From Pseudomonas abieticivorans (GTDB taxonomy: Bacteria; Pseudomonadota; Gammaproteobacteria; Pseudomonadales; Pseudomonadaceae), in NCBI RefSeq assembly GCF_023509015.1, contig NZ_CP094975.1, positions 5,821,501-5,885,500 on the forward strand: a stretch of 64,000 nt of DNA. Direction: 5' to 3'. A program made the position numbers and the translations under genes. The stretch's first letter is position 1. Every line of letters starts with the position of its first letter. Shown one piece after another: positions 26,498 through 51,323 of this stretch. The notes below the pieces were generated by a model, which was not told where the DNA came from, did not search any database, and worked only from the letters and a program-made list of their open reading frames with translations.

Positions 26498-27661
26498 ATG
26501 CGATTTATCCTCTTCTCCTTGGCGCTGGCGGCGTTTGCCATCGGCACCACCGAATTCGCGCCCATGGGCCTGTTGCCGGTGATTGCCAGCGGCGTGGGCG
26601 TGTCCATCCCCAGCGCCGGCATGTTGATCAGCGCGTACGCGGTGGGCGTGATGGTCGGTGCGCCGCTGATGACCCTGTTGCTCAGCCCGGCGCGGCGCAA
26701 GACCGCGCTGTTGTTGCTGATGGCGATCTTCACCGTGGGCAACGTGCTGTCGGCCTTCGCACCGGGCTACGCGAGCTTGCTGTTCTCGCGGGTGTTCACC
26801 AGCATGGCCCATGGCGCGTTCTTCGGCCTGGGTTCGGTGGTGGCGGCAAGCCTGGTGGCCAAGGAAAAACAGGCCGGTGCCGTGGCCACCATGTTCCTGG
26901 GCCTGACCATTGCCAACATTGGCGGGGTGCCAGTGGCTACTTGGATCGGCCAATTGATCGGCTGGCGCGCGGCGTTCTTCGCCACCGCAGGCCTGGGCGT
27001 GCTGGCGATGGTGTCCCTGGCGTTCGCCTTGCCACGGGGTGAGAAGGGCCAGATGCCCGAAGTGCGCCGCGAGTTGCGCGTGCTGATGCGCCCGCAAGTG
27101 CTGCGCGCGTTGCTGACCACAGTGCTCGGCGCTGGCGCCATGTTCACGCTGTACACTTACATCGCCTCGGTGCTGCAGCACCTGACCCACGCCACACCGA
27201 CCTTCGTGACCGCCATGCTGGTGGTGATTGGTATCGGTTTCACGCTGGGCAACCTGCTCAGCGGCAAGCTCGCCGAGCGCTCGCTGGAAGGCACGCTGAT
27301 GGGCTTTCTGGGCGTGCTGGCGGTGATCATGCTGGCGTTCCCGTTTATCGCGACCACCTCGCCAGGCGCGGCCATCACCCTGTTGCTGTGGGGCGCGGCC
27401 ACTTTCGGCGCCGTACCGCCGTTGCAGATGCGGGTGATGCACGCGGCCCACGATGCGCCGGGCATGGCCTCTTCGGTGAACATTGGCGCCTTCAACCTGG
27501 GCAATGCCCTGGGGGCGGCGGTGGGTGGCGGCGTGCTGGGCCTGGGCCTGGGGTATGAATGGATTGCGCCGGCCGGTGGCGTGCTGGCCCTGGCCGGGCT
27601 GCTGCTGACCGCGGCCAACCGCAGCCCGGCAGCGGCCACCGGCGCAGCAATGGCTCAGTGA
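26498..27661 (+). CDS. MFS transporter, AraJ/drug-proton antiporter-1 type
   Basis: 387-aa permease. It begins MRFILFSLALAAFAIGTTEF, the DHA1 signature (A-x-G-T-T-E-F) of AraJ/YdhP-like proteins, and has about 12 hydrophobic segments. A positively charged loop LLSPARRKTALLL lies after helix 2, and FSRVFTSMAHGAFFGLGSVVAASLV is helix 4. It is controlled by the divergent TetR. It probably exports small organic compounds or sugars; the substrate is unknown. Its stop overlaps the stop of the convergent gspF by 7 bp. Confidence 0.88.
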   Translation: MRFILFSLALAAFAIGTTEFAPMGLLPVIASGVGVSIPSAGMLISAYAVGVMVGAPLMTLLLSPARRKTALLLLMAIFTVGNVLSAFAPGYASLLFSRVFTSMAHGAFFGLGSVVAASLVAKEKQAGAVATMFLGLTIANIGGVPVATWIGQLIGWRAAFFATAGLGVLAMVSLAFALPRGEKGQMPEVRRELRVLMRPQVLRALLTTVLGAGAMFTLYTYIASVLQHLTHATPTFVTAMLVVIGIGFTLGNLLSGKLAERSLEGTLMGFLGVLAVIMLAFPFIATTSPGAAITLLLWGAATFGAVPPLQMRVMHAAHDAPGMASSVNIGAFNLGNALGAAVGGGVLGLGLGYEWIAPAGGVLALAGLLLTAANRSPAAATGAAMAQ

Positions 27662-28842
27662 ATACTGGACGCCAACTCGAAGATCGGGATGTACATCAGG
27701 ATCACGATGACCCCGATCAATAGCCCGATGAAGGTCATCAGCAACGGCTCGAACAGGCGCACGAACCATTCGATCCAACGGCTGATCTCCTCGTCGTAGA
27801 AGTCCGCGCTGCGCTCCATCATCTGCCCCAGGTTGCCGGACTGTTCGCCAGCCCGCAGCAGGCGCAGCGACACCGGGGTCACTAACTGGTTGAGCTCCAG
27901 CGCGTTGGACAACGACAGGCCTTCGCGCACCCGCTCGGCGGCCTGGTCCAGGCGCACCCGGGACTGGACGGTGAGCAGCCCGCGCACCATGCCCATGGCC
28001 GTGAGGATCGGGATGCCGCCTTGCAGCAAAATCCCCAATGAGCGGTAGAAACGTGCCAGTTCGTACATGACGATGCGTTGGTGCACGGCAGGCACCTTCT
28101 GGATCAGCCGGTCGACGGCGCGGCGAAACAGCGGTTGGCGCTGTACCACGCCCAGCGCCACCGCCGCCACCGCCAGGCCCGTGAAAAACTCGGCCTGGTG
28201 GCCGTGCAGGAACATCCCGGTGTTCATCAACACTTGCGACAGCCACGGCAGGTTGTCACCCAGCCCCTCGAACACCAGGCTGAAGCGCGGCACCACGTAG
28301 CCCATCAAAAACAACACCACGCCACCGCCGACGATCAGCAGCAGCATCGGGTAGATTGAGGCGCTGACGATCTTCTGGCGCACCTCGTCCATGCGCTGGC
28401 GATAGGACACGTAGCGGCCCAGTGCCTCGCCGACCGACCCGGTCTTTTCGCTCGATTGCACCAACGCCACGTACAGCGGCGGGAACACCGCGCCCAGTTG
28501 GCTGAGGGCCAGGGAGAACGACTTGCCTTCGTACAACAGGCGTACCAGCTCGCTCAGGGTCTTGCGGGCGTTGGGGGCGGTCTCCTTTTCCGCCAGGCTT
28601 TCCAGGGCGTCAATCAGCGGCAGGCCGGCATTGATCAATGTGGTCAGCTCCTGGCTGAACAGCACCAGGTTGAAGGACTCCTTGCGGTGCAAGCGTAGCG
28701 GGTGCCAGTGGCGTTCGGCGCGCAGGCTGACCACCCGCAAGCCCTGGTCCTCGGCCAAGCGACGGGCTTCGGCCTGGCCGGGCGCTTCGACCGTCAGGGA
28801 TACCACCGCACCTTTGCCGACTGCCTTGAGATGAAACCGCAT
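27655..28842 (-). CDS. gspF: Type II secretion inner-membrane platform protein GspF
   Basis: 395-aa polytopic protein. Two T2SSF repeats are present (about 62-185 and 260-385), each with the pattern F-S-Q-E-L-T-T-L-I-N-A-G-L-P-L-x-DAL and LARFYRSLGILLQGGIPILTAM, each followed by a transmembrane helix; a third helix lies at the C-terminus (IGLLIGVIVILMYIPIFEL). It anchors the pseudopilus-assembly ATPase GspE, encoded 15 kb away at 42358. Its partner gspG lies 12 bp upstream on the same strand. The ATG at 28842 begins MRFHLKAVGKG. Confidence 0.93.
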   Translation of the reverse strand: MRFHLKAVGKGAVVSLTVEAPGQAEARRLAEDQGLRVVSLRAERHWHPLRLHRKESFNLVLFSQELTTLINAGLPLIDALESLAEKETAPNARKTLSELVRLLYEGKSFSLALSQLGAVFPPLYVALVQSSEKTGSVGEALGRYVSYRQRMDEVRQKIVSASIYPMLLLIVGGGVVLFLMGYVVPRFSLVFEGLGDNLPWLSQVLMNTGMFLHGHQAEFFTGLAVAAVALGVVQRQPLFRRAVDRLIQKVPAVHQRIVMYELARFYRSLGILLQGGIPILTAMGMVRGLLTVQSRVRLDQAAERVREGLSLSNALELNQLVTPVSLRLLRAGEQSGNLGQMMERSADFYDEEISRWIEWFVRLFEPLLMTFIGLLIGVIVILMYIPIFELASSIH

Positions 28843-28854
28843 GCCGTGCGCCCC

Positions 28855-29289
28855 TTACTGCCAGTTGGTGATTTCGGCGTTCTCGCCTTCGCCGCCGGGT
28901 TGGCCGTCCTTGCCCATGGAGCTCAGGTCGTATTCGCTGTTTTCCCCGGGGTAGCGGTACAGGTAATTGCGCCCCCAAGGGTCTTGCGGCACTTTTTTCT
29001 GAAGGTAAGGGCCGGTCCACTTGGTTTCATCGCTGGGCGCCACCACCAGTGCCTGCAAGCCCTGCTCGGTGCTGGGGTAATGCCCCACCTCCAGCCGGTA
29101 CAGGTCCAAGGCCTTGCCCAGGCCCTCGATCTGCGCCTTGGCCACCTTGGCTTCGGAGCGGCCCAATTGGGCGAAATACTTGGGGGCGACGATGCCGGCC
29201 AACAGGCCCAGCACCACCAACACCACCAGCAATTCGAGGAGGGTGAAGCCGGCCTGGGCACGGCGGCGGTTAATGCAGGAACGGTTCAT
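28855..29289 (-). CDS. gspG: Major pseudopilin GspG
   Basis: 144-aa prepilin. After a short basic leader, the peptidase site is AG^FTLLELLVVLVVLGLLAG (Glu at +5). The C-terminal part carries the major-pseudopilin calcium-site region: GHYPSTEQGLQALVVAP, GPYLQKKVPQDPWGRNYLYRYPG, EYDLSSMGKDGQPGGEGENAEITNW. This is a complete GspG. Start 29289 follows GAGG; the open frame runs 79 codons further upstream but without prepilin character. With gspF it forms a leftward pair, split from the main secretion genes by the oxidase operon. Confidence 0.93.
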   Translation of the reverse strand: MNRSCINRRRAQAGFTLLELLVVLVVLGLLAGIVAPKYFAQLGRSEAKVAKAQIEGLGKALDLYRLEVGHYPSTEQGLQALVVAPSDETKWTGPYLQKKVPQDPWGRNYLYRYPGENSEYDLSSMGKDGQPGGEGENAEITNWQ

Positions 29290-29389: not shown

Positions 29390-29405
29390 CGGCACAGTGC
29401 TTGCT
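29390..29405 (+). promoter_or_regulatory. Possible sigma-54 promoter of the transglycosylase gene
   Basis: CGGCACAGTGCTTGCT matches TGGCAC-N5-TTGCW at all positions but the first T. The GGGGCATATCCCC palindrome then lies downstream of the predicted start, unlike the arrangement at the oxidase, so the assignment is tentative. Confidence 0.4.
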
Positions 29406-29476: not shown

Positions 29477-30085
29477 ATGCGCTTGATCATCACCGCATTC
29501 CTGGCCGGGCTTGCCGCCAGCAGCATCGTCCAGGCCGACGTCTATATTTCGCGGGACGCCAACGGCGGCTACGTGCTGTCCAACGTGCACCGCCCCGGCC
29601 GCCACTATGAGCGGGTTATCCAGGAAGCCTCGCTGGGGGTGGCCAGCGTGGCCGAACAGCCGCAGATGATTGCCAACCAGCCGTACGCCGAGTTGGTGTC
29701 GGCGGCCGCTACCGCTAACCAATTACCTGCGGCCTTGCTGCATGCGGTGATCAAGGCTGAATCGGCCTACAACCCCAGTGCCTTGTCGCCCAAGGGGGCT
29801 GCGGGGTTGATGCAACTGATGCCCGACACGGCGCGGCAAATGGGCGTGGCCAACGTGTACGACCCCCAGGCCAACATCCAAGGCGGCGCGCGTTACCTCA
29901 AGCAGTTGATGACCCTGTTCGGCAACGACATCGCCCTGGCCGTGGCGGCGTATAACGCCGGGCCCGATGCGGTGCTGAGCCGCGGCCGGGTGATCCCGCC
30001 GTTCGCCGAAACCCAGCGCTACGTGCCCAGCGTGCTGCGCCAGTACCGGCGCTTGCAAGGCTTGGCGGTGGATGCCCCACTGTAA
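29477..30085 (+). CDS. Lytic transglycosylase (SLT family)
   Basis: 202-aa exported enzyme. The signal peptide MRLIITAFLAGLAASSIVQA is followed by a DUF4124-like segment (DVYISRDANGGYVLSNVHRPGRHYERV). The SLT domain has the catalytic Glu in KAESAYNPSALSPKGAAGLMQLMP, then YDPQANIQGGARYLKQLM and AYNAGPDAV. Such enzymes open peptidoglycan locally so that a secretion apparatus can be inserted; here it sits between two halves of a type II system. Ribosome site GGGGAGG (29464-29470) sets the start at 29477. Confidence 0.9.
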   Translation: MRLIITAFLAGLAASSIVQADVYISRDANGGYVLSNVHRPGRHYERVIQEASLGVASVAEQPQMIANQPYAELVSAAATANQLPAALLHAVIKAESAYNPSALSPKGAAGLMQLMPDTARQMGVANVYDPQANIQGGARYLKQLMTLFGNDIALAVAAYNAGPDAVLSRGRVIPPFAETQRYVPSVLRQYRRLQGLAVDAPL

Positions 30086-30198: not shown

Positions 30199-30214
30199 TG
30201 GCATGAGCTTTGCT
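30199..30214 (+). promoter_or_regulatory. Sigma-54 (-24/-12) promoter of the multicopper oxidase operon
   Basis: TGGCATGAGCTTTGCT fits TGGCAC-N5-TTGCW at all but one position and shares TGGCATGA with the promoter at 41655-41670. Transcription would start near 30225. That excludes the ATG at 30203 and supports translation from 30260. Confidence 0.75.
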
Positions 30215-30259
30215 CGGGTGGTTTTGTCCTGTACAGCACCCCCTTGCGAGGCCCGTCCC

Positions 30260-33200
30260 ATGAACGGCATATCCCCGTCACCGCGGTTGATGAACCTGCT
30301 TCTGCTGATCGGTTCCCTGTTTGGCCTTGAGCCGTTTGCCGAGGCCCAGGTGCGCTGTGAGCGCAACCTGGTCGCGCAGGTGGTAGCCCTTGATCAACCC
30401 CTGATGTTCAACCGCCTGGGCGCGCAAAACGCCAACGGCATGCTCTACGCGCTGCGCCGCGACGTGGTCGATGACCGTGGCGTGTCGCTGGCCCAGGGCG
30501 GGGCGGCGGTGCCTGGCAAAGTGACCCTGCGCGCCGACAAGCGCCCACGGCCGATCGTGCTGCGCATGGCCGCCGGCGACTGCCTGACCGTGCACTTGCA
30601 GAACTTGCTGGCCTATCAGGCCAACCCGGCGAGTGACCAGGGGCAGGATGAAGTCCAAGATCAGGCGGGCGCCCAACTGCCGGTGGTCGATGACCAGGTG
30701 GCCGACCGTCACGTGGGCTTTCAGGTCAACGGCCTGCAGGCCGTCAGCAGCATCGATGACATTGCCTCGTTCAGCGGGCGTAACGCCAACAGCCTGGTGG
30801 CCCCCGGGGCCAGCCGCAGCTATGTGTTGTTCGGTGAGCGCGAAGGCGCCTTTGCCGCCAGCAGCCGTGGCGCGACGTTTGGCGGGGAGGGCAATGCCGG
30901 CAACGCGGCCAATGGCCTATTTGGCGAAGTGGTGGTACTGCCCAAGGGTGGCCGCGCCTACCGCAATACCGTGACCGAAGAAGAGCTGCGCCTGGCCAGT
31001 GTGGGCCGCACGCCAGCCGGCCAGCCGGTGGTGGATTACCAGGCGCGCTACCCGCAACGCCAACCCTGGGTCGGCGAAGCCCGCGGCGGGCTGCCGATTC
31101 TGAACATGCTCGATGGCAATGAAATCATTGCCAGCGACAGCGATGCCATCGTCATGGGCAGCAATGCCGATGGCAGCTTCCCCCCGGCCACCTACCCGCT
31201 GGAAGCGGTGGGCAAGCGCAACCCGGCGTTGCCCAACCGGCTGGAACCCTTTCGTGATTTTGCCTCGCAGTTCCAGGATGAGGTGGCCGTGACCCAGGCG
31301 TTCCCCGGTTACTGGGCGGACCCGGTGATGGCCCATGTGCTGGAGCCCACCCGCGATTCGTTCATGATCAACTACGGCTCCGGCGGCATGGGCGCCGAGG
31401 TCATCGCCAACCGCCTGGGCGTGGGCCCGATGCATGATTGCCTGTCGTGTGCCTACGAAGAATTCTTTTTAAGCTCGCACACCGTCGGCGACGTGGCGAT
31501 GCTGGTGGACGTGCCGGCCAACGTCGGCCTGGAAAACATCCGCCCAGGCCAAGTGCCGAGTGCCGACCAGGTGGGCGTCAAGGCCAGCATGGCGCTGTAC
31601 CCGGCCGAGCCGTCCAACGTGAACCACAGCTACATCGGCGACCTGGTGAAGTTTCGCAACACCCACAATGGCCACGAGCAGCACATCTTCCACCTGCACG
31701 GGCATCAGTGGCTGTTCAACCCCAACGACGACAACTCCGACTACATCGACGCCCAAGGCATTGGCCCGGGCGCCGGCTACACCTACGAAATCGCCAACGG
31801 CGGCTCGGGCAACCGCAACCGCGTGGCGGGCGACGCCATTTACCACTGCCATTTCTACCCCCACTTTGCCCAGGGCATGTGGGCCATGTGGCGCATCCAT
31901 GACGTGTTCGAGGAGGGCACTGTGCTTGAGGTGTCGCAACAAGGCGTCGACGGTTACCACACCGCGCCCTTCGCCTTGCGCAGCGGCAAGCCGGCCGCCG
32001 GCGCACGGGCCTTGCCCGATGGCGAGATCATTGCCGGCACACCGATCCCGGCGGTGGTGCCACTGCCGGGCAAGGCCATGGCGCCGATGCCCGGCAAAGT
32101 GGCGGTGGTGCCCAAACTGGGTGAAACCCGGCTGGCCGCCAACGATGACGACGGTGAGGGCGACGATGATGATGGGCAACACGGCGGCGGCCAGCAGGCC
32201 ATCGGTTCCCTGGCCGTGGTGGACCGCAGCCAGGCCAACCGCAACGCCGACGGCAGTTTGAAAAACCCAGGCTACCCGTTCTGGATCGGTGGCATGGAAA
32301 GCAGCGTCGGCCAACGTCCGCCGACCCCGCCGCTGGACATGCTCGACCCGGCCCAGGCCACTGCGCTCAAGGCCACGGGCAAGGCCTTGTGGGCCAACCT
32401 GGACCCGGTCCAGGCCGGTGGTTGGAACGGCGGTTTGCCGCGCCATGCGCTTGACGGCGTGGCGGCAGGGGGCGAGGCCGACACCCAGACCACCTCGCTG
32501 GACTTCTCCAAGGTGGTGACCCGCGCCAAGCCCCTGTACCTGCCTGAAGAGGGCACAGAGGTTGAGCAGTCTGCCATGGCCTTCCATGCACTCAAGGAAC
32601 ACCCAAGCTACGCCGTGCTACCCGGCAACCAAGTGGTGCCCAAGCCGTTTCGCACCAACGGTGCCTTGCCGGTGGCCGGCGCGCCGTACTACGAGCCGTG
32701 CATGGACGATCGGCAAAAACGCCTGACCGCCAGTGCCGGCCTGGGTGAATTCAACAGCGGCGAGCGCCTGGACGGCGTCTCGTTCACTGGCGCGTCCACC
32801 TTCAGCGCCGACCGCCCGCGGCTGTACAAGGCGGCCAACATCCAGTTCGACGCGGTGTACAACAAGGTCGGCTACCACTTCCCGCAGGCGCGCATCCTGG
32901 CCTTGTGGGAAGACGCCTGGCCGGTGATCACCAAGCAGCGCCCACCCGAACCCCTGGTGATGCGCATGAACACCTTTGACTGCGTGATGTACCAGCAAAC
33001 CAACCTGATCCCGGCCACCTACGAGATGGACGACTACCAGGTGCGCACGCCCACCGACGTGATCGGCCAGCACATCCACCTGCCCAAGTGGGACCTGACC
33101 TCGGCCGATGGTTCCTCCAATGGTTGGAATTACGAAGACGGCGTACTCTCGCCCGGCGCGGTGGTGGAGCGCATCCATGCCATCCGCACCTTCAACGGCT

Positions 33201-36070: not shown

Positions 36071-36093
36071 CGGCCAAGAAAAGGGGAACGCAC

Positions 36094-39288: not shown

Positions 39289-39291
39289 CCG

Positions 39292-40851: not shown

Positions 40852-40860
40852 GGCACCGTC

Positions 40861-41654: not shown

Positions 41655-41670
41655 TGGCATGAAGTGTGCT
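41655..41670 (+). promoter_or_regulatory. Sigma-54 (-24/-12) promoter of the secretion operon
   Basis: TGGCATGAAGTGTGCT: correct GG/GC spacing, eight bases identical to the start of the oxidase promoter at 30199. The predicted transcript start near 41681 rules out the ATG at 41680 and supports the TTG start at 41737. Confidence 0.68.
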
Positions 41671-42357: not shown

Positions 42358-44064
42358 ATGGAACGTTTGTCCCTTGCTGTAGAACCGGCATCGCCGGCCC
42401 GTGCACCCCACCGATTCGCCAGTGATCAGCTGGCCCAGGCCCGAACCCTCGCCTCATCCTCTGGCGAGCGCATGCTCGACGCCCTGCAACAACTCTGCGG
42501 GTTGCCCCCGCAGGGCTTTGTCCAGTGCCTGGGCGCGACCCTGCATTACCCCGTGCTGGATGGCCCGAGCCTGTTCGATGCCGTGCCGGTGTTCGACCGG
42601 GTCACCCTGGCGCAGTGCCTCAAGCGCGAATTCATTCTGCTGCGCCACGCCGGCGCGGTCATCGGCGTGTTTGCCGACCCCTTCGATGGCGCCCGCCTGG
42701 CCTGGATCGACGACTGCCTGCATGGCGCACCGTTGTACCTGGTGCACGCCGACGACCTGAAGGCCTACCTGGCCCGCCATGAAGAAAGCTTCCACGCGGT
42801 GGAGTCGCTCAATGCCCAGGCTGATGCCGGCACGCAGATCGACACGCTGCAGAGCCTGTCGCTGACCAGTATCAGCGAAGATGCGAGCGTGGTGGTCAAA
42901 CTGGTCAACTCCACGCTGTACGACGCCTTGAAGATGCACGCCAGTGATATCCACCTCGGCACCACGGGCAGCGGCCTGGTGATCAAGTACCGCATCGATG
43001 GCGTACTCAACAACATCAGCAAGATCCAGGGCACCGAGTTCGCCGAGCAGGTGATCTCGCGGGTCAAGGTCATGGCCGAACTGGACATCGGCGAGAAGCG
43101 GGTGCCCCAGGATGGCCGGTTCAAGATCGGCATCAGCGGCCGCCAGATCGACTTTCGGGTCTCGATCATGCCGAGCATCTTCGGCGAGGACGCGGTGCTG
43201 CGGGTGCTCGACAAGCAGGACCTGGCCGATAAGGTCAGCGGCGTGCAACTGCAGGCCTTGGGCTTTGCCGACGAGACCTTGCGCAGCCTGCGCCGCCTGG
43301 CCGCCGAACCCTACGGCATGGTGCTGGTGACCGGGCCCACCGGCAGCGGCAAGACCACCACCCTGTACGCGATGATCACCGAGATCAACCACGGCGTGGA
43401 CAAGATCATCACCATCGAAGACCCGGTGGAGTACCAGTTGCCCGGCGTGTTGCAGATCCCCGTCAACGAAAAGAAAGGCCTGACCTTCGCCCGTGGCCTG
43501 CGCTCGATCTTGCGCCACGACCCGGACAAAATCATGGTCGGCGAGATCCGCGACCCCGACACCGCGCAGATCGCCGTGCAGTCGGCGCTGACTGGCCACC
43601 TGGTGTTCACCACCATCCACGCCAACAACGTGTTCGACGTGATCGGGCGGTTTACCCAAATGGAAATCGACCCCTACAGCCTGGTTTCGGCGCTCAACGC
43701 CGTGCTGGCCCAGCGCTTGATCCGCCTGTCGTGCAGCCATTGCAGCGTGCCTTGCCAGCCCACTGAGGAGGAGTTGCTGGCCGCCCGGATCGACCCCGCG
43801 GACGCCGGCCATTACCACTTTGTGCATGGCAAGGGCTGCGGCCATTGCCGGGGCACGGGCTACCGCGGGCGCACGGCGATCGCCGAGTTGCTGCACCTGG
43901 ACGACGAATTGCGGCAGATGATCGTCGAACGCCAACCCATCTCGAAAATCAAGGCCCTGGCCTGTGCCCGTGGCTTGCGCCTGTTGCGCGAGTCGGCACT
44001 GGAGCTGGTGCGCGATGGCCGGACCACCCTGGAGGAGATCAATCGTGTCACTTTTGTCGCGTGA
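42358..44064 (+). CDS. gspE: Type II secretion ATPase GspE
   Basis: 568-aa PulE/GspE ATPase. The N-terminal GspE_N region (about 40-150) is followed by the ATPase core: Walker A GPTGSGKTT near 326, Asp box IEDPVEYQ, Walker B IMVGEIRDPDTA near 391, His box TGHLVFTTIHANN. A zinc-binding tetra-Cys lies near 459-496 (SCSHCSVPC and CGHC). It powers pseudopilus assembly by cycling ATP under GspF. GGAGAG precedes ATG 42358. Its last 20 bp overlap the next gene. Confidence 0.95.
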   Translation: MERLSLAVEPASPARAPHRFASDQLAQARTLASSSGERMLDALQQLCGLPPQGFVQCLGATLHYPVLDGPSLFDAVPVFDRVTLAQCLKREFILLRHAGAVIGVFADPFDGARLAWIDDCLHGAPLYLVHADDLKAYLARHEESFHAVESLNAQADAGTQIDTLQSLSLTSISEDASVVVKLVNSTLYDALKMHASDIHLGTTGSGLVIKYRIDGVLNNISKIQGTEFAEQVISRVKVMAELDIGEKRVPQDGRFKIGISGRQIDFRVSIMPSIFGEDAVLRVLDKQDLADKVSGVQLQALGFADETLRSLRRLAAEPYGMVLVTGPTGSGKTTTLYAMITEINHGVDKIITIEDPVEYQLPGVLQIPVNEKKGLTFARGLRSILRHDPDKIMVGEIRDPDTAQIAVQSALTGHLVFTTIHANNVFDVIGRFTQMEIDPYSLVSALNAVLAQRLIRLSCSHCSVPCQPTEEELLAARIDPADAGHYHFVHGKGCGHCRGTGYRGRTAIAELLHLDDELRQMIVERQPISKIKALACARGLRLLRESALELVRDGRTTLEEINRVTFVA

Positions 44065-44848
44065 TCGATTTGTTGCGGTGATCGGCGCCAGTGGCGTGGG
44101 CCTGGGGCGTTTGCAGGGCGCCCGCACCTGCTGGCTGGGCAGCGTCGGCTTCATCGACGAGGGCTTCGCCGCCTTCGCGGTGGCGCTGGACACCCTGGAC
44201 CGCCTGCTGGCCGAACATGCCAAAGGCCGGGCCGATTTATGCGTGCTGGTCTCGGCGCATTTCAGTCGCTACTGCCTGGTGCCCTGGAGTGAGCAGATCA
44301 CCAGCGTGAACGAGCTGCAGGGCTTTGCCCAGGTGTGTTTCGAAGACCTGTACGGCGTGCCCAGCCAGCCCTGGAGCATCGTGTTGTCGGCAGAAGCGGC
44401 TGGCCGCGAGCGCATCGCCAGCGCCTTGCCCCAGGACCTGTTGGGCCGCTTGCGCCAGTTGGTGGCGGCACGCGGGCTGCGCCTGAGGTCGGTGCAGCCG
44501 TACCTGATGGCGGCGTTCAACCGCTTTGACCGCAGCCTTGCCAGCGGCGATTTCCTGTTCGTGGTGGCGGAGCCGGTGCGCAGCGTCGTGCTGCTGGCGC
44601 GCGAAGGGCGCTGGGCCGCCGTGCGCTCGGTGGGCTGCGCCGACAACGACGCCGCCTTGGGTGCCCTGATCAGCCGCGAACGGGAGCTGCAGGCCGCCCT
44701 CAGTGAGCGGCCCTTGAATATTTATCTGCACGCGCCGGGCCGGCTCGACAGCCTGCCCGAGTTGCCCGGCGTGCAACTGCGCACCCTGGAAGACGACCCG
44801 GCGCCGCTGCGCGACGGGTTGTACGTGATGTCCCGGGCGGTGGCTTGA
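44045..44848 (+). CDS. PilM/GspL-cytoplasmic-domain-like protein
   Basis: 267-aa protein starting at GTG 44045, with GGAGGAG in the gspE end as ribosome site. It has no signal or membrane helix. The pattern (VAVIGASGVGLGRLQGARTC; GRADLCVLVSAHFSRYCLVPWSEQI; VAARGLRLRSVQPYLMAAFNRFD; GDFLFVVAEPVRSVVLLARE) resembles the actin-like cytoplasmic domain of GspL/PilM, which ties the ATPase to the membrane platform. Its place between GspE and PilN-like genes fits. The assignment is by context and weak resemblance. Confidence 0.65.
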   Translation: MSLLSRDRFVAVIGASGVGLGRLQGARTCWLGSVGFIDEGFAAFAVALDTLDRLLAEHAKGRADLCVLVSAHFSRYCLVPWSEQITSVNELQGFAQVCFEDLYGVPSQPWSIVLSAEAAGRERIASALPQDLLGRLRQLVAARGLRLRSVQPYLMAAFNRFDRSLASGDFLFVVAEPVRSVVLLAREGRWAAVRSVGCADNDAALGALISRERELQAALSERPLNIYLHAPGRLDSLPELPGVQLRTLEDDPAPLRDGLYVMSRAVA

Positions 44849-44849: not shown

Positions 44850-45395
44850 ATGCGCCCGCTAACGCTCGACTTCCAGCCGCGCCGGCGCTCAGGCCCACTG
44901 GGCTGGGGCTTGCTGGGCCTGGGCCTGGCCGTGGCCATCGGCTGTGTCATCGGCCAGCAGCAGTTGGACCAATGGGCGGCGCAACAGCACACCCACCTGC
45001 GCCACGCCCAACGCCAACTCACCGGCGACAGTGGCGCAGGCGTGAGCCTGACCCCCGCGCAATTGCGCGAGCAGGAGCAGAACCTGGCGCAAATGCGCCA
45101 AGTGTCGCAGCAACTGCGCAGGCCCTGGGAACGGCTGTTCGCCATGCTCGAGGCGCTGCAGCTGGACAACGTGGCGTTGCTGACCCTGACCCCCGACGCG
45201 CGCAAAGGGCAAGTACGCATCACCGCCGAGGCGCGGGACCTGGACGCGATGCTCGACTTCCACCGGCAACTGGAAGCCAGCGAAGAGCTCAGCGACGTGT
45301 CGTTGCTCAACCACGAGATTGACGCCAAGTCGCCGGAGCACCCGGTGCAGTTCAACTTGCTGGCCAATTGGGAGATCGGCGATGCGCATCCCTAG
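44850..45395 (+). CDS. PilN-like inner-membrane assembly protein
   Basis: 181-aa protein: a short cytoplasmic segment (MRPLTLDFQPRRRSG), one membrane helix (LGWGLLGLGLAVAIGCVIG), a coiled-coil stretch rich in Gln, Arg and Leu, then a ferredoxin-like periplasmic domain (VALLTLTPDARKGQVRITAEARDLDAMLDFHRQLE). This is the PilN layout, equal to the membrane and periplasmic part of GspL. It starts 1 bp after the PilM-like stop and overlaps the next gene by 14 bp. Confidence 0.75.
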   Translation: MRPLTLDFQPRRRSGPLGWGLLGLGLAVAIGCVIGQQQLDQWAAQQHTHLRHAQRQLTGDSGAGVSLTPAQLREQEQNLAQMRQVSQQLRRPWERLFAMLEALQLDNVALLTLTPDARKGQVRITAEARDLDAMLDFHRQLEASEELSDVSLLNHEIDAKSPEHPVQFNLLANWEIGDAHP

Positions 45396-45930
45396 ATTGA
45401 TTGTGCAGGAATACCTCCAGGGCCTGGGCCTGCCCGGCCTGGTCGGCATCGCGTTGCTGGTGTTGGCACTGGTGTATGCCGCGGCCGGTTTGCTGCCCGG
45501 TTGGCGCAGCGTCGAGCAACTCAACCAGCAAACCCGCGACGCCGGCGAGTACCTGGCCAAGGTCCAAGCGGGCAGTGTCGCAGCCCCGGTGGTGCCGCAG
45601 CGCGAGCTTGAGGATTTTCGCCGCAAACTGCCGGCCCAGCCCCAAGCCACGGTGGCCATCGACCGCATCTATGCCCTGGCCGCCCAGGAGCACATCACCC
45701 TGGCCCGCGGCGAATATGCCTTGGGCGTGGACCCCAATACCCACCTGGCGCGTTATCAGATCCTGCTGCCGGTCAAGGGCAGTTACCCGCAGCTGCGGCG
45801 CTTTCTGCACGCCTTGTTGGGTGAGCTGCCCGCGGTGGTGGTGGAGGACGTGGAGTTCCAACGCAAACGCATCGCCGACACCGACCTGACCGGGCGGATC
45901 CGCATGACCCTTTACCTGTCGAGGTCGTGA
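45382..45930 (+). CDS. PilO/GspM-like inner-membrane assembly protein
   Basis: 182-aa bitopic protein with one helix (LGLPGLVGIALLVLALVYAAAGLL), a coiled coil (VEQLNQQTRDAGEYLAKVQ) and a ferredoxin-like periplasmic domain (HLARYQILLPVKGSYPQLRRFLHALLGELPAVVVEDVEFQRKRIADTDLTGRIRMTLYL) characteristic of PilO/GspM. It overlaps the PilN-like gene by 14 bp and ends at the start of the next gene, so the set is translationally coupled. Confidence 0.78.
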   Translation: MRIPRLIVQEYLQGLGLPGLVGIALLVLALVYAAAGLLPGWRSVEQLNQQTRDAGEYLAKVQAGSVAAPVVPQRELEDFRRKLPAQPQATVAIDRIYALAAQEHITLARGEYALGVDPNTHLARYQILLPVKGSYPQLRRFLHALLGELPAVVVEDVEFQRKRIADTDLTGRIRMTLYLSRS

Positions 45931-46445
45931 TGAACAATAAACGGGTCGTGGGCTGGCTGGTGTTTTTCGCGGTGGCAGCGGCGGTGGCGAGCTACCCGGA
46001 CCTGTTCCTCAAATCCGACGTGGCCGAGCAGGAGGCCACCGCCACGGCGCCGGTCAAGGCGCGGTTACGCGGCAGCCTGCCGGCCGCGGGCGCGGCGAAA
46101 GCCGAGGCGCCGATCAAGGACCTGAGCCCAGCGGGCGACCTGTTCGCAGCCAAGAGTTGGAAACCACTGGCCACCCTGGCCACCGTCACCGAACAACCGG
46201 TGAACCCCACCACCGTGGTGCAAGCCCCCAGTGCACCGCCCATGCCGTTCCAGTTCATCGGCCGGTTGGATGACCGTCGTGACCTGCAAGTGTTCTTGCA
46301 GAACGGCGAAAAAATATACGTCGTGCGCAAAGGGGATGTGATCGACGACACCTGGCGGATCGAGACCATTTCCGACAAGGAACTGCGCCTGGTTTATCTG
46401 CCGCTGCATTTAGCGCAGACCTTGTCTGTGGGGAGCACGCAATGA
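45930..46445 (+). CDS. GspC/PilP-like secretin-coupling protein
   Basis: 171-aa protein: one N-terminal helix (RVVGWLVFFAVAAAVASYPDLFL), an Ala/Pro-rich linker (about 35-100), and a C-terminal HR-like beta domain PFQFIGRLDDRRDLQVFLQNGEKIYVVRKGDVIDDTWRIETI, as in GspC and PilP, which couple the inner-membrane platform to the secretin. ATG 45930 overlaps the preceding stop; a GTG three bases earlier is also possible. The stop overlaps the secretin start (ATGA). Confidence 0.78.
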   Translation: MNNKRVVGWLVFFAVAAAVASYPDLFLKSDVAEQEATATAPVKARLRGSLPAAGAAKAEAPIKDLSPAGDLFAAKSWKPLATLATVTEQPVNPTTVVQAPSAPPMPFQFIGRLDDRRDLQVFLQNGEKIYVVRKGDVIDDTWRIETISDKELRLVYLPLHLAQTLSVGSTQ

Positions 46446-48271
46446 ACTCACCGCGTTTGAGACTGACCTTGCTGGCCTTGTGCATTGGCCTGGCCGCCTG
46501 CAGCACCGCCCGCGTCGCCAACCAGGAGGCCAGCGACCTGGTGGCCCAGGGGCAATATGAAGCCGCCATCGCCCGCATCGAGGACGGCCTGCGCGAGAAC
46601 CCGCGTGACACCGAACTGCACCTGGCGTTGAACAATGCCCGCAGCACGGGCGTCAAGGCGTTGCTGGCCCAAGGCGACACCGCCCGGGCCAACCGCGAAT
46701 TCGCCGTGGCCCAGCAAAGCTACAGCCGGGTGCTGCACATCGAACCCAACAACCGCCGCGCCCAGGACGACCTGCGCCAACTGGATTACCTGCGCACCCA
46801 GGACCAGAAACTGGAACTGGCCCGCGGCGACCTGCGTCGTGGCGACATCAATGGCGCCGACCGCCAGGTACGGCAGATTCTTGAGCTGGACCCCAAGAAC
46901 GAAGGCGCCCTGGAGCTGCGCAGCAATATCCAACTGGTACAGAGCCGCAACGTGGTGAGCTACCCGCAGCTGCACACGCGCCTGGACCGGCCCGTGACGC
47001 TTGAGTTTCGCGACGCCAACATGAAGGTGATCTTCGAGGTGCTGTCCCAGGTGGCGGGGCTTAACTTTATTTTCGACAAGGACCTGCGCCCCGACATGAA
47101 AGCCACGATCTTTGTGCGCGACGTGCGCATCGAGGACGCCGTGGCGTTACTGCTGCAACAGAACCAATTGCACCAGAAGGTGGTGAACGAGAACACCATC
47201 CTGATCTATCCGGACTCGCCGCAGAAGGTCAAGGACTACCAGGAGCTGGTGATGCGCACCTTCTACCTGACCAACATCGAAGCCAACACCGCGCTGAACA
47301 TGATCAAGACCATGCTCAAGACTCGCGACGTGTTCGTCGATGAACGCCTCAACACCTTGACCATGCGCGACACCGAAGACGCGGTGCGCATGGCCGAGAA
47401 ACTGCTGCAGGCCCAAGACCAGTCCAACCCCGAGGTGGTGCTGGAAGTGGAGGTGATGGAGGTGGCTCGCCAGCGCATCCTTGACCTGGGCCTGCAATGG
47501 CCCAACACCTTTGGGGTGATCAACAGCGATGGCACCGGGGTCAGCGTGCTCGACCAGTTGCGCGGCATCAATGCCGGCCGCATCTCCATCTCGCCCTCGC
47601 CACAGCTGAAAATCAACGCCCAGGACAACGACATCAACACCTTGGCAAGCCCAGTGATCCGCGTGAGCAATCGCGAGCAGGCGCGTGTTCACATCGGCCA
47701 ACGGGTGCCGATCATCAGCGCCACCTCGGTGCCGTCCACCCAAGGCCCGGTGATCACCGAAAGCGTGACCTACCTGGACGTGGGCTTGAAGCTTGAGGTG
47801 CAACCCATCGTGCACCTGAACAACGAAGTGGCCATCAAGATAGCCCTGGAAGTGAGTAACGCAACGCCTCTGGAACCTACCCGCCAAGGCACCATCCCGG
47901 TCCAGGTGGACACCCGCAACGCCCAGACCACCTTGCGCCTGCACGACGGCGAAACCCAGGTGCTGGCAGGCCTGGTACGAAACGACCACGGCGACACCGG
48001 CAACAAAATCCCGGGCCTTGGCGACATACCGGGGCTGGGGCGGTTGTTTGGCAGCAACAAGGACACCATTGGCAAGTCGGAGCTGGTGCTCTCGATTACC
48101 CCGCACATCGTGCGCAACCTGCCGTACCAGAGCCCTTCGGACATGGAGTTCAGCACCGGCACCGAAACCAGCATGCACGTGCAGGCGCCGGACCGCGCCT
48201 GGGAGTCGGCCGAACAGCCCAAACCGCTGGCCGCACCGATTGCCGCCACGCACGTGATCGAGAGGCCTTGA
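46442..48271 (+). CDS. gspD: TPR-containing secretin lipoprotein (GspD/PilQ/MshL-like)
   Basis: 609-aa outer-membrane channel protein. The lipoprotein signal ends GLAAC (Cys20). TPR-like repeats follow (about 25-155: ASDLVAQGQYEAAIARIEDGLRENPRDTELHL; ARGDLRRGDINGADRQVRQILELDPKNEGALEL). An STN/N0 domain comes next (RPVTLEFRDANMKVIFEVLSQVAGLNFIFDKD), one secretin_N repeat, and the secretin core with VPIISAT and the lid/gate TRQGTIPVQVDTRNAQTTLRLHDGETQVLAGLVR. Classical GspD has three N repeats and no TPR, so this is a hybrid form closer to type IV-pilus/MSHA secretins. Probable export channel for the oxidase. Confidence 0.9.
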   Translation: MNSPRLRLTLLALCIGLAACSTARVANQEASDLVAQGQYEAAIARIEDGLRENPRDTELHLALNNARSTGVKALLAQGDTARANREFAVAQQSYSRVLHIEPNNRRAQDDLRQLDYLRTQDQKLELARGDLRRGDINGADRQVRQILELDPKNEGALELRSNIQLVQSRNVVSYPQLHTRLDRPVTLEFRDANMKVIFEVLSQVAGLNFIFDKDLRPDMKATIFVRDVRIEDAVALLLQQNQLHQKVVNENTILIYPDSPQKVKDYQELVMRTFYLTNIEANTALNMIKTMLKTRDVFVDERLNTLTMRDTEDAVRMAEKLLQAQDQSNPEVVLEVEVMEVARQRILDLGLQWPNTFGVINSDGTGVSVLDQLRGINAGRISISPSPQLKINAQDNDINTLASPVIRVSNREQARVHIGQRVPIISATSVPSTQGPVITESVTYLDVGLKLEVQPIVHLNNEVAIKIALEVSNATPLEPTRQGTIPVQVDTRNAQTTLRLHDGETQVLAGLVRNDHGDTGNKIPGLGDIPGLGRLFGSNKDTIGKSELVLSITPHIVRNLPYQSPSDMEFSTGTETSMHVQAPDRAWESAEQPKPLAAPIAATHVIERP

Positions 48272-48274: not shown

Positions 48275-48748
48275 ATGAAAACCTCGGCGCGCGGTTTCAC
48301 CCTGATTGAAGTCGTGGTGACCCTGGCCTTGCTTGGGCTGCTCGCCAGCATGGCCGCGCCCTTGACCGAAACCGTGGTGCGCCGCGGCAAAGAACAGGAG
48401 CTCAAGAGCGCCCTGTACCAGATCCGCGACGCCATCGACGCCTACAAGCGCGCCTTCGACGCCGGCTACATCGAAAAATCGCTGAACAGCAGCGGCTACC
48501 CGCCCAGCCTGCAGGCGCTGGTGGACGGCGTGCGCGACGTGCGCAGTGCCAAGGGCGCGAAGTTCTATTTTTTGCGGCGCGTGCCCCGTGATCCGTTCGC
48601 CACTGCCCGGCAAGACGACACGGGGGGCTGGGGCTTGCGCTCCTACGACAGCAGCGCCGACAGCCCGCGTGATGGCGAGGACGTGTTTGACGTGTATTCC
48701 CAGGCCCGTGGCAAGGGCCTTAACGGCATCGCTTACCGCGAGTGGTGA
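48275..48748 (+). CDS. Pseudopilin 1
   Basis: 157-aa prepilin with leader MKTSARG and cleavage before FTLIEVVVTLALLGLLASMAAP (Glu at +5). The globular part has a GspG-like helix and a proline-rich end (RRVPRDPFATARQDDTGGWGLRSYDSSADSPRDGEDVFDVYS). It starts 3 bp after the secretin. Likely a pseudopilus subunit; major or minor status is uncertain because gspG is encoded elsewhere in the region. Confidence 0.87.
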   Translation: MKTSARGFTLIEVVVTLALLGLLASMAAPLTETVVRRGKEQELKSALYQIRDAIDAYKRAFDAGYIEKSLNSSGYPPSLQALVDGVRDVRSAKGAKFYFLRRVPRDPFATARQDDTGGWGLRSYDSSADSPRDGEDVFDVYSQARGKGLNGIAYREW

Positions 48749-48752: not shown

Positions 48753-49127
48753 ATGCGACGGCAAACCGGCTTTACCTTGATCGAGCTGATGGTGGTGATG
48801 GCGATCATCGCTACCCTGATGACCATCGCCTTGCCGCGCTATTTCAATAGCCTGGAAGCCTCCAAGGAAACCACTTTGCACCAGAGCCTGGCGGCCATGC
48901 GCGAAGCCCTGGACCATTACTACGGCGACACCGGGCACTATCCCGATTCCCTCGACCAACTGGTCGAACAGCGTTACTTGCGCAACCTGCCGGTGGACCC
49001 GATCACTGAGCGTGCCGACCAATGGGTACTGGTGTCGCCGCCCGATGGCGTGGCCGGCGGGGTGGCCGACGTCAAGAGTGGTTCCAATGGGAGGGCGCGC
49101 GATGGCAGCCAATTCGCCGAGTGGTGA
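48753..49127 (+). CDS. Pseudopilin 2
   Basis: 124-aa prepilin, leader MRRQTG, cleavage before FTLIELMVVMAIIATLMTIALPRYF (Glu at +5). GHYPDSLDQLVEQRYLRNLPVDPITERADQWVLVSPPDG is the GspG-like C-terminal half, ending GSNGRARDGSQFAEW. It begins 4 bp after pseudopilin 1; its 3' end overlaps pseudopilin 3 by 26 bp. Confidence 0.87.
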   Translation: MRRQTGFTLIELMVVMAIIATLMTIALPRYFNSLEASKETTLHQSLAAMREALDHYYGDTGHYPDSLDQLVEQRYLRNLPVDPITERADQWVLVSPPDGVAGGVADVKSGSNGRARDGSQFAEW

Positions 49128-49632
49128 GCGCGTGGGGCAGGGGGGCTTTACCTACCTGGGCGTGTTGCTGTTGATCATGGTGATGGGCATGGGCCTGGCC
49201 AGTGCCGGCGAGCTATGGGCCACCGCAGCCCGGCGCGACCGCGAGCGCGAACTGCTGTGGGTGGGCACCCAGTATGCCCAGGCGCTGCGCAGCTACTACC
49301 GCGCCTCGCCGGGCCTGGCGCAGTACCCGCGCGACTTGCAGGACCTGCTGGTCGACGACCGTTTCCCCAGCCCCCGGCACCACTTGCGCAGGCTCTACCC
49401 AGACCCCGTGGGCAACACCGAGTGGGGCCTGATGCGCGGCTTGGACGGGCGCATCAACGGGCTCTACAGCCAAAGCGACGCGACCCCGCTCAAACAGGCC
49501 GGCTTTGATGCCCAGTGGTCGGACTTCAACGGCATGGTGCGCTACCGCGACTGGCAGTTCGTGGCCGAGAAGGCCTTTCTCGACAGCCCTGCCAAGGGCC
49601 AGCCGGCCGCCACCGGCGGGTTGGCACCATGA
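49102..49632 (+). CDS. Pseudopilin 3, lacking the conserved Glu+5
   Basis: 176-aa prepilin-like protein: leader MAANSPSGERVGQGG then FTYLGVLLLIMVMGMGLASAG. The residue at +5 is Gly instead of Glu. In type II systems the tip subunit GspK characteristically lacks Glu+5. This protein is shorter than GspK, so it may be a tip subunit of a reduced pseudopilus. GGGAGGG (49089-49095) within pseudopilin 2 serves as ribosome site for ATG 49102. The stop overlaps the csgE start (ATGA). Confidence 0.8.
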   Translation: MAANSPSGERVGQGGFTYLGVLLLIMVMGMGLASAGELWATAARRDRERELLWVGTQYAQALRSYYRASPGLAQYPRDLQDLLVDDRFPSPRHHLRRLYPDPVGNTEWGLMRGLDGRINGLYSQSDATPLKQAGFDAQWSDFNGMVRYRDWQFVAEKAFLDSPAKGQPAATGGLAP

Positions 49633-50021
49633 AGCGCGGGCCTGCGCTGGCGTTGGCTTGCCTGCTGCTGGCGGGCAACGCCTGGGCCGGCGCCGAAGAC
49701 GAAATGATGGGCTTTATCACCGAGGACTGCATCTCGCACATCGGCCACGACTTTTACTACAGCTTCAGCAAGCGCATGCGCGACATCAGCCGCATGGATT
49801 TCAACTTGGTGGTGCGCGAACGCCCCTCGGCGCGCTGGGGCAGCCTGGTCACCATCGAATATCAGCAACGCGTGATCTACCGGCGCTTCCTGCCGCCGAA
49901 CACCGTGGATTTACAGGCCACGGCCAATGAGGCCGCTGACCTGGTCAAGGCGCAGATCATCCAGCGCAAGCTGGAAACCCTATTGCAGGACACCACCGAC
50001 CTTGAGAAGGATGAACTATGA
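49629..50021 (+). CDS. csgE: Curli secretion specificity factor CsgE
   Basis: 130-aa periplasmic protein (signal MKRGPALALACLLLAGNAWA). The motif ISHIGHDFYYSFSKRM followed by LVVRERPSARWGSLVTIEYQQRVIYRRFL is the CsgE signature. In curli systems CsgE caps the CsgG channel and escorts the amyloid subunit CsgA. Its start overlaps the stop of the last pseudopilin, placing it in the same transcript as the secretion genes rather than next to csgBA. Confidence 0.92.
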   Translation: MKRGPALALACLLLAGNAWAGAEDEMMGFITEDCISHIGHDFYYSFSKRMRDISRMDFNLVVRERPSARWGSLVTIEYQQRVIYRRFLPPNTVDLQATANEAADLVKAQIIQRKLETLLQDTTDLEKDEL

Positions 50022-50434
50022 ACACGACAACCCTCTCGCGCCGCGTTGGCCTGCTGTTGGCGGGCGTGTGCGGCAGTGGCCTGGTCTGCGCCACGGAGCT
50101 GGTCTACACGCCGGTGAACCCCTCGTTTGGCGGTAACCCGCTCAACGGCACCTGGCTGCTCAACAACGCCCAGTCGCAGAACGATTACGACGACCCGGAC
50201 TTGAAAAAGTCCTCGGCCACCGGCACCACGGCCCTGGAGCGGTTCACCAGCCAGTTGCAGGCGCGGTTGCTCAACCAGGTGCTGGACAATATCTCGACCG
50301 GCAACTCGGGCAGCCTGTCCACCGATGCATTTATCGTCAACGTCGTCGACGACTCGGGGGCCCTGAGCATTCAGGTGACCGACCGGGCGACCGGCGAGGT
50401 CTCGGAAATCCAGGTCAATGGCCTGTCCCAGTAG
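50018..50434 (+). CDS. csgF: Curli assembly protein CsgF
   Basis: 138-aa exported protein (signal MNTTTLSRRVGLLLAGVCGSGLVCA). The mature start TELVYTPVNPSFGGNPLNGTWLLNNAQSQNDY is the conserved segment that plugs the CsgG channel. It ends LSIQVTDRATGEVSEIQVNGL as in E. coli CsgF. ATGA overlap with csgE. CsgF normally couples secretion to surface nucleation of curli. Confidence 0.93.
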   Translation: MNTTTLSRRVGLLLAGVCGSGLVCATELVYTPVNPSFGGNPLNGTWLLNNAQSQNDYDDPDLKKSSATGTTALERFTSQLQARLLNQVLDNISTGNSGSLSTDAFIVNVVDDSGALSIQVTDRATGEVSEIQVNGLSQ

Positions 50435-50462
50435 GGATTTGGGCTGATGGGGAGTGTGCGTC

Positions 50463-51323
50463 ATGAAAAAACTGATCATTGCCACCCTGCTGTTGGCGGC
50501 GCTGGCGGGCTGCGGCTTGCGCGAGCCGATGCCGGCCGAGCAGGACACCGAAACCCCGACCCTGACACCACGGGCCTCGACCTATTACGACCTGTTGAAA
50601 ATGCCGCGGCCAAAGGGCCGGCTGATGGCGGTGGTGTATGGGTTTCGCGACCAGACCGGGCAGTACAAGCCAACCCCGGCCAGCTCTTTTTCCACCAGTG
50701 TGACCCAAGGCGCGGCCAGCATGCTGATGGACGCCCTGCAGGCCAGTGGCTGGTTCGTGGTGCTGGAGCGCGAAGGCCTGCAGAACCTGCTGACCGAACG
50801 CAAAATCATCCGCGCCTCGCAGAAAAAACCCGATACCCCAGTGAACATCATGGGTGAACTGCCGCCCCTGCAGGCTGCCAACCTGATGCTGGAGGGCGGC
50901 ATCATCGCCTACGACACCAACGTGCGCAGCGGCGGCGAAGGTGCCCGCTACCTGGGGATCGACATCTCCCGCGAGTATCGGGTCGACCAGGTTTCGGTCA
51001 ACCTGCGCGCCGTGGACGTGCGCAGCGGGCAAGTGCTGGCCAACGTCATGACCAGCAAGACCATCTACTCGGTAGGGCGCAGCGCCGGGGTGTTCAAGTT
51101 CATCGAATTCAAGAAACTGCTGGAGGCAGAGGTGGGCTATACCACCAACGAGCCGGCGCAATTGTGCGTGCTGTCGGCCATCGAGTCCGCCGTCGGCCAC
51201 CTGCTGGCCCAAGGCATCGAGCGCCACTTGTGGAGCGTGGCCAGCGACAATTCGGGGGACAATGCCACGCTGGACCGGTACTTGAGCCAAAACCGCCAGG
51301 ACAGCGAGAGCCAGAACCCGTGA
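50463..51323 (+). CDS. csgG: Curli outer-membrane channel lipoprotein CsgG
   Basis: 286-aa lipoprotein (MKKLIIATLLLAALAGC, Cys17). Conserved parts are MPRPKGRLMAVVYGFRDQTGQYKP, the transmembrane/constriction region SSFSTSVTQGAASMLMDALQASGWFVVLEREGLQNLLTERKI, and VSVNLRAVDVRSGQVLANVMTSKTIYSVG. It forms a nonameric diffusion channel. ATG 50463 is chosen as the lipoprotein start. It ends the operon; the next genes converge, so no csgA or csgB follows here. Confidence 0.93.
   Translation: MKKLIIATLLLAALAGCGLREPMPAEQDTETPTLTPRASTYYDLLKMPRPKGRLMAVVYGFRDQTGQYKPTPASSFSTSVTQGAASMLMDALQASGWFVVLEREGLQNLLTERKIIRASQKKPDTPVNIMGELPPLQAANLMLEGGIIAYDTNVRSGGEGARYLGIDISREYRVDQVSVNLRAVDVRSGQVLANVMTSKTIYSVGRSAGVFKFIEFKKLLEAEVGYTTNEPAQLCVLSAIESAVGHLLAQGIERHLWSVASDNSGDNATLDRYLSQNRQDSESQNP

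Follow-up and report, generated by a model that had tools for sequence, protein, structure and literature searches.

The stretch of Pseudomonas abieticivorans DNA analysed here (the window: 64,000 nucleotides, bases 5821501-5885500 of contig C1 in a one-contig genome of 6.72 Mb) carries, at 27655-51323, a giant multicopper oxidase (MnxG), a secretion system related to the type II secretion systems (T2SS) and called Xcm, and the curli export genes csgEFG. In our opinion these three machines are probably encoded and regulated together in a heritable island devoted to manganese oxidation, of which the block represents the greater part. The original prediction described a single 24-kb block holding an MnxG-like oxidase, its copper chaperones and partners, a transglycosylase, secretion genes and csgEFG, and indeed scans of the open frames with Pfam and NCBIfam recover all of these pieces in that order and at the coordinates given. 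The same gene order returns across the loci fetched from relatives, and the arrangement is therefore beyond chance. Beyond the window, curlins and a second, McoA-like oxidase are encoded elsewhere in the same genome. Our view is built on what we observe of gene content, gene order, co-occurrence, conserved promoter-like sites and genomes in which the oxidase is different or missing.

Among 198 Pseudomonadaceae genomes (the family sample), a close MnxG occurs in 28 that spread over 6 genera; 27 copies are near full length and that of G044 is in two pieces. The Xcm secretin (E<=1e-30) is found in 30 of the 198 genomes and the minor pseudopilin XcmX in the same 30. All 28 MnxG genomes carry both, while 168 of the 170 others carry neither; the resulting table of MnxG against Xcm (28/0/2/168) gives a Fisher p of 4.9e-32, a value uncorrected for kinship. 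The two genomes that have Xcm without a close MnxG are G056 and G153, the latter with a diverged version (38% identity). A further MnxG match, in G107, reaches at most 46% identity on most pieces; it was kept out of the 28 and counted among the 170, and that genome has no Xcm secretin at E<=1e-30. As a control we used the gene for EPSP synthase from the window, which is present in 1 of the 28 MnxG genomes versus 23 of the 170 others (p 0.21); it is an accessory gene (window 21606-22877), found in 24 of the 198 family genomes at E<=1e-30.

The association is also one of position. The mnxG and secretin genes lie at most 18 kb apart in 26 of the 28 genomes, the exceptions being G028, in which they are megabases apart, and G025, in which they are on two contigs. 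In a wider sample of 299 genomes from the phylum, the secretin (E<=1e-50) was found in 6 and MnxG (E<=1e-20) in 3, the P. abieticivorans genome being counted in both; apart from it, only G295 has the two together, far apart (its secretin stands about 0.7 Mb from a distant oxidase). Co-occurrence and proximity, together with the conserved sigma-54-like sites that the two sets of genes have in common, bear out the earlier proposal of a dedicated unit of oxidase and secretion genes.

The mnxG gene lies on the plus strand at 30260..36070; its open frame (30203-36070) has 1955 aa, and the true start is probably the ATG at 30260. Its product passes the NCBIfam equivalog model for MnxG (NF041487) with 3848.7 bits against a cut-off of 3100 and has no Pfam-A match at E<=0.001. 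The ligand motif HCHxxxHxxxxM of multicopper oxidases is present in all 27 MnxG sequences examined, the one of the window included, and a twin-arginine-like pattern in only two of them. By this likeness MnxG probably oxidises manganese. Its signal peptide is of the Sec type, thus folding and copper uptake should occur in the periplasm. Downstream, on the same strand, follow a YVTN beta-propeller protein (36094..38034; TIGR02276 80.1 bits, cut-off 27.85), the SCO1/SenC copper chaperones A (38048..38692; Pfam SCO1-SenC 66.7 bits) and B (38689..39288; 62.7 bits), a fusion of cytochrome c and periplasmic-binding domains (39292..40851; Peripla_BP_6 111.9 bits, Cytochrom_C 25.4 bits) and a SurA_N chaperone-like protein (40861..41517; SurA_N_3 60.4 bits). 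Upstream, also on the plus strand, is a lytic transglycosylase (SLT) gene (29477..30085; Pfam SLT 98 bits). Tandem mnxG matches were seen in some relatives, two in G131 (L025) and three each in G150 and G068 (L031, L032). Two distant giant oxidases (L060:6641-12949 and L079:6225-12389) score 780 and 807 bits with the MnxG model, well under its cut-off of 3100; they are accompanied by propeller, SCO and cytochrome-fusion matches, and no Xcm lies within the fetched stretch.

The Xcm genes stand on both sides of the mnxG operon. Two of them are on the minus strand: xcmF (xcmS-like; 27655..28842; Pfam T2SSF 187.1 bits), for the inner-membrane platform protein F, which has the same place in relatives, and xcmG (xcmT1-like; 28855..29289, probable start 29289; T2SSG 145.5 bits, N_methyl), for the major pseudopilin GspG. 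The others are on the plus strand and begin with a stand-alone response-regulator receiver (41737..42186, TTG start assumed; Response_reg 82.2 bits) and xcmE, the GspE ATPase (42358..44064; T2SSE 413 bits). A GspL/PilM-like assembly protein (44057..44848) and a GspC/PilP-like protein (45930..46445), both with approximate starts, were assigned by position and conservation and have no Pfam or NCBIfam match. Between them lie a PilN-like protein (44850..45395; PilN 22.6 bits, slightly below the cut-off of 22.8) and a GspM-type protein (45382..45930; T2SSM_b 23.1 bits, cut-off 21.7), the latter matched in 27/27 and 78/78 loci that hold the adjacent PilN-like gene. The secretin gene, xcmD (46442..48271; Secretin 134 bits, STN, Secretin_N, TPR), is followed by two pseudopilins (48275..48748, N_methyl 31.5 bits, and 48753..49127, 38.6 bits) and by xcmX (49132..49632, GTG start assumed), a GspK-like minor pseudopilin recognised from its sequence, with no Pfam or NCBIfam match. 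GspK-type minor pseudopilins lack the Glu that is usual at position 5 counted from the cleavage site, and so does XcmX, with the motif GG-FTYLG.

The original description of this machine as a type II/type IV hybrid was a fair one. The E, F, G, M and secretin components all exceed their Pfam cut-offs as T2SS parts, while XcmD stays under the curated cut-offs for both kinds of secretin, with 148.9 bits versus 351.35 for GspD (TIGR02517) and 141.5 versus 284.35 for PilQ (TIGR02515). Judged by these matches, Xcm is a relative within the T2SS class and not a canonical Gsp system. XcmD has a lipobox cysteine, Cys20, that is invariant in 13 aligned secretins, and N-terminal TPR repeats come after it; XcmD is a liposecretin and may carry its own pilot domain. 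In G153 (L058, L059) the diverged Xcm-like operon lies between genes for RHS/SpvB-type repeat proteins on both sides, with a TraI_2 helicase gene nearby. After this locus, it is possible that relatives of Xcm serve other large exoproteins.

Directly behind xcmX, on the plus strand, come csgE (49629..50021; Pfam CsgE 120.9 bits), csgF (50018..50434; CsgF 106.3 bits) and csgG, for the outer-membrane curlin channel (50463..51323; CsgG 270.7 bits). Start and stop overlap as ATGA between xcmX and csgE (49629-49632) and again between csgE and csgF (50018-50021); given the first of these four-base overlaps, csgEFG seems to form the end of the Xcm operon. This csgG is the sole CsgG match of the genome at E<=0.001. 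Here the island is split, with csgA (482 aa) and csgB (153 aa) at C1:5658577-5660516, about 211 kb from csgG; an IS66-family transposase gene at window 59626-60714, 8 kb downstream of csgG, may have to do with this split. Two proteins of the genome carry curlin repeats (100.9 and 74.2 bits), as curlin subunits do. By our comparison of genomes, the curli genes of the island are more likely to form fibres than to export the oxidase.

The same is seen in the family. A strong CsgG (E<=1e-70) is present in 71 of the 198 genomes, namely 23 of the 28 with MnxG and 48 of the 170 others; this count excludes weak matches, which are the only ones in 41 of 112 genomes (E 1.6e-31 to 8.2e-4). Curlin repeats are found in all 71 strong-CsgG genomes, and none at E<=0.001 in the five MnxG genomes that are without a strong CsgG; curlin matches without a strong CsgG occur in two genomes, G085 and G090. 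The csgBA genes adjoin csgG within the fetched stretch in 18 of the 23 genomes with both MnxG and a strong CsgG, and in these 18 two unnamed exoprotein genes and a conserved sigma-54-like site lie ahead of them. In G135, G150 and G068 the curlin genes are on a different contig from csgG, G146 has no csgBA within the 4.6 kb that remain before the contig end, and the last of the 23 is P. abieticivorans itself. The 80 named secretin loci that we compared are the best of 547. In 44 of them csg is present and the sequence extends for 9.5 kb or more beyond the secretin; 24 of these 44 also have csgB after csgG, and in the other 20 none is found there within the stretch. The universal presence of curlins and the neighbourhood of csgBA make curlins the obvious cargo of CsgEFG, hence it is most likely that CsgEFG exports these and not the oxidase.

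Irrespective of its cargo, csg seems to have a history in common with the island. We compared 44 CsgG sequences in a tree, all 23 island copies and 21 non-island copies chosen by hand, and the island label needs 2 changes on it versus a mean of 15 in shuffles. The island copies are not one clade, since the non-island groups g6/g8/g14 and g16 fall among them. Island and non-island copies of genus g5 form two distant groups, and G135, of genus g9, joins g1. In genera g1, g9 and g12 all 17 strong-CsgG genomes are MnxG genomes. This suggests that csg was inherited together with the island, though it is sometimes absent. Co-conservation of the blocks, which the original prediction had made its own test, holds for oxidase and Xcm and only in part for csg (23/28). 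As the tree fits an inheritance of csg along with the island, csg and the oxidase may still have a looser functional link.

The two exoproteins, which we refer to as Big448 and Big762, belong to what appears as the other half of the island. In P. abieticivorans, csgA, csgB, Big762 and Big448 lie at C1:5658577-5664206, and the McoA-like oxidase match is at 5666138-5668891. The full order, over C1:5658577 to 5673008 (L062:8578-15910, L063:2049-9009), is csgA, csgB, Big762, Big448, kinase, McoA-like oxidase, SCO-like match, second kinase and NtrC-type regulator, so that the Big pair is located between csgB and a sensor kinase. A Pfam scan finds HisKA in the kinase of P. abieticivorans and Sigma54_activat in the NtrC-type protein of the relative G078. 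Big762 has Ig/cadherin-like repeats. Big448 has neither a Pfam match nor an NCBIfam family, and most source names read "hypothetical protein"; its predicted fold (mean pLDDT, the predicted local distance difference test, 62.8, with residues 15-108 under 50) yields structure matches that are only generic Ig-like. The big448 and big762 genes overlap by 4 bases, and the next gaps, to csgB and to csgA, are 57 and 29 bases; by this spacing big448-big762-csgB-csgA is likely an operon. Each of the 28 MnxG genomes has Big762; among the 170 others only G011 and G062 do, and both have the Big pair and regulators and are without the secretin. In G062 (L068:9100-20000) the Big pair, regulators, an xcmG match and a transglycosylase gene followed by a kinase gene are found, and neither mnxG nor any further xcm gene is matched between them; it is a possible remnant of an island whose middle part seems to be lost.

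With regard to regulation, the claim of shared sigma-54 signals stands for certain positions and fails for the window as a whole. On a score with a maximum of 16, the 64 kb hold 20 sites of at least 13.5 versus a mean of 24.5 in 10 Markov shuffles; an overall enrichment was therefore rejected, and only the positions of sites in relatives are telling. The best site of the window (30199..30214, plus strand, score 15) lies before mnxG, and sites of at least 14 occur at this place in 25 of 29 sequences (control windows 4.4%). Another (29390..29405, plus strand, 14.5) precedes the transglycosylase gene and recurs at that threshold in 21 of 23 sequences (control windows 5.4%). The third (41655..41670, plus strand, 14) precedes the receiver-xcm-csgEFG operon, where 34 of 64 sequences have such a site (2.2% of control windows), with a cluster between -60 and -80. 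Before big448 such sites are found in 26 of 39 sequences (control windows 3.8%) and in 7 of 18 of a second set. There are none before csgB (0/25 and 0/24), csgG (0/25) or csgF (0/59), and few before csgE (0/25 and 2/60). The remaining counts at this threshold are, in the first set, GspE 11/32, secretin 3/35, kinases 0/34 and 0/34 and XcmG 0/3, and in the second SCO A 7/63, McoA-like oxidase 3/5 and GspL 0/60. The overlapping loci L062/L063, L004/L065 and L014/L066 are counted twice in the first set, and L062/L063 in the second as well. In P. putida GB-1, sites for integration host factor (IHF) and sigma-54 are predicted upstream of mnxG and mcoA (PMC11930936), and in a related strain an rpoN insertion abolishes manganese oxidation (PMC11409713).

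Loci in which the oxidase is missing or exchanged tell more about the division of labour. In P. fluorescens C8 and Pseudomonas sp. ACN8 and R37 (L087, L089, L090), mnxG, the propeller gene, the SurA-like gene and csgEFG are unmatched beside Xcm (csg was not searched elsewhere in these genomes), while SCO A, a partial SCO B match, the cytochrome fusion and Xcm are kept. SCO A begins about 200, 230 and 360 bases, respectively, after the transglycosylase match, and a sigma-54-like site precedes it. None of the three genomes has MnxG anywhere, and all have McoA-like oxidases. Given that such loci keep Xcm, they suggest that the propeller and the SurA-like protein work for MnxG, and that other oxidases can be cargo of Xcm. 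Two Ramlibacter species supply such an oxidase in the Xcm operon itself, between receiver and SCO and directly upstream of the Xcm genes (GspE), with distant Big relatives downstream. In R. alkalitolerans it is a protein of 956 aa with Cu-oxidase_2 by Pfam, and the genome has no MnxG match; in R. monticola it is an open frame of 1049 codons. The oxidase that P. abieticivorans encodes beside csgBA and the Big genes is of the same McoA-like type. R. alkalitolerans (L149:1835-4705 and genome) has five near-full-length McoA-like matches of 66-69% identity, plus partial ones. Further from the family, MnxG and Xcm are joined by an NtrC-type regulator in a Rhodocyclaceae genome, and Aromatoleum loci combine mnx-operon genes with Xcm, with no csg within the stretch (the MnxG of A. 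diolicum is at 65%). From this gene content, the best reading of Xcm is that it exports multicopper oxidases.

We can now sketch how the parts might work together; what follows on substrates, folding roles, regulation and electron flow we infer. MnxG would be exported by Sec and would then fold in the periplasm with the help of the SurA-like protein, the two SCO proteins would load it with copper, and the propeller and the fusion of cytochrome and binding protein would serve it. Xcm, aided by the transglycosylase, would move folded MnxG, as well as the McoA-like oxidase that is encoded elsewhere, to the cell surface. CsgEFG, co-transcribed with Xcm, would export CsgB and CsgA, the curlins coming from an operon that they share with the Ig-rich Big448 and Big762. 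NtrC-type (MnxR-like) regulators would switch on all parts together with sigma-54. A T2SS passes proteins in the folded state, unlike CsgG; if MnxG folds in the periplasm, then the simplest reading is that the oxidase passes through Xcm and the curlins through CsgG, under one activator.

Several facts weigh against this picture. MnxG as the cargo of Xcm rests on association and on the reported genetics of GB-1. G056, of genus g17 like the Azotobacter genome, has Xcm and neither MnxG nor a McoA-like oxidase, and most Xcm loci outside the family have no adjacent oxidase or csg within the fetched stretch, therefore Xcm probably carries other cargo too. In R. monticola an MnxG at 57% is found elsewhere in the genome, so that the oxidase in its Xcm operon comes in addition to MnxG and does not simply replace it. 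Our scoring of sigma-54 sites applies ad hoc weights to a consensus. The transglycosylase site reaches 14 in only 1 of 6 sequences of the second set (three others score 13.5), the big448 site of P. abieticivorans itself scores only 13, and sites before the propeller gene, inside the end of mnxG, also reach 14 in 11 of 28 sequences.

The original prediction placed csgEFG in the export route of the oxidase, as a second export step or an anchoring step. The overlap of csgE with the end of xcmX, the presence of a strong CsgG in most MnxG genomes and a CsgG lineage that seems to travel with the island speak for this. We nevertheless rejected it and regard it as very improbable: five of the 28 MnxG genomes do without a strong CsgG, no CsgG is found within the fetched stretch of the named loci from Aromatoleum, Azotobacter and P. 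sagittaria, and the usual cargo is always at hand, with curlins in 71 of 71 strong-CsgG genomes and in P. abieticivorans itself. Moreover, the CsgG pore is, by its established structures, a passage for small unfolded proteins, whereas the oxidase would be a folded copper enzyme of about 200 kDa. One may go to the other extreme and regard csg as a passenger, curli and manganese oxidation being functionally unrelated neighbours. We find this unlikely. Csg is indeed absent from some MnxG genomes and present in 48 of the others, csgBA is far from csgG in P. abieticivorans and not behind it in nearly half of the named csg loci, and two non-island groups interrupt the island copies in the CsgG tree. 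Against this, the island CsgG of genus g5 is apart from the ordinary curli of the same genus, the strong-CsgG genomes of g1, g9 and g12 are without exception MnxG genomes, and csgBA follows Big448/Big762, with a conserved sigma-54-like site and with Big762 tracking MnxG in 28 of 28.

That last observation, together with the distant Big762 relatives beside Xcm in Ramlibacter, may be turned into a different proposal, in which Xcm mainly exports Big448 and Big762 and the oxidases leave by another route. We consider this quite unlikely. G011 and G062 carry the Big pair and lack Xcm, G056 and G153 carry Xcm and lack Big762, and published genetics reportedly tie a Gsp-related pathway to export of the manganese-oxidizing factor. 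Returning to MnxG, Xcm and CsgEFG as jointly encoded and regulated machines, a bolder idea can be offered tentatively: one regulon under one sigma-54 activator may build a mineral-making matrix, in which two copper oxidases delivered by Xcm sit in a co-secreted scaffold of curli and Big448/Big762, with Xcm as a class of T2SS for unrelated multicopper oxidases. Our comparison bears on how a manganese oxidase reaches the surface and why cells build such enzymes, and it supplies a parts list: MnxG with its propeller and SurA-like protein, Xcm for more than one type of oxidase, Big448/Big762, and curli. Strains that naturally lack or exchange parts allow gene-by-gene tests of the roles in secretion and matrix.

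Some of this has been seen before, and the earlier statement that the join is little explored is only partly right. For P. putida GB-1, de Vrind et al. reportedly described in 2003 (Mol Microbiol 47:993) an xcmT1-xcmS pair, as well as xcmX beside xcmT2/xcmT3 and csmEFG, and mutants are said to fail to bring the manganese-oxidizing factor to the surface. The genes of the window fit this account by description; the Xcm/Csm clusters are not known to have been joined there to the mnxG operon, curlins or Big proteins. The mnxG operon of GB-1 and Pseudomonas sp. OF001, according to a figure legend of PMC8218464, has genes of the beta-propeller lactonase family, SCO family, ABC, SurA and mnxG, a list that matches window 30260-41517; the words "secretion", "csg" and "curli" have zero occurrences in the main text of that article. 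In Geobacter the Pul/OxpG T2SS is required for secreting the multicopper oxidase OmpB (PMC3543383), which is again a T2SS serving a multicopper protein; a csg link is unmentioned in the passage on it. PMC3056050, the one paper found to mention both mnxG and curli, lists csgEFG and csgAB of P. putida as two clusters, and its passages on them make no tie to manganese. Our literature search found no paper that links mnxG and curli functionally. The likeness to the curli system (type VIII secretion) is that CsgE, CsgF, CsgG and curlin-repeat proteins are all in the P. abieticivorans genome; the difference is that here csgEFG ends a T2SS operon and csgBA follows two genes for Ig-rich exoproteins. 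Already known are thus the Gsp-related secretion of the manganese-oxidizing factor, the neighbourhood of xcmX and csg (reportedly, from 2003) and the mnxG operon, and what we add is the half of the island with curlins and Big proteins, the shared type of promoter, the exchange of oxidases and the signs of inheritance as a unit.

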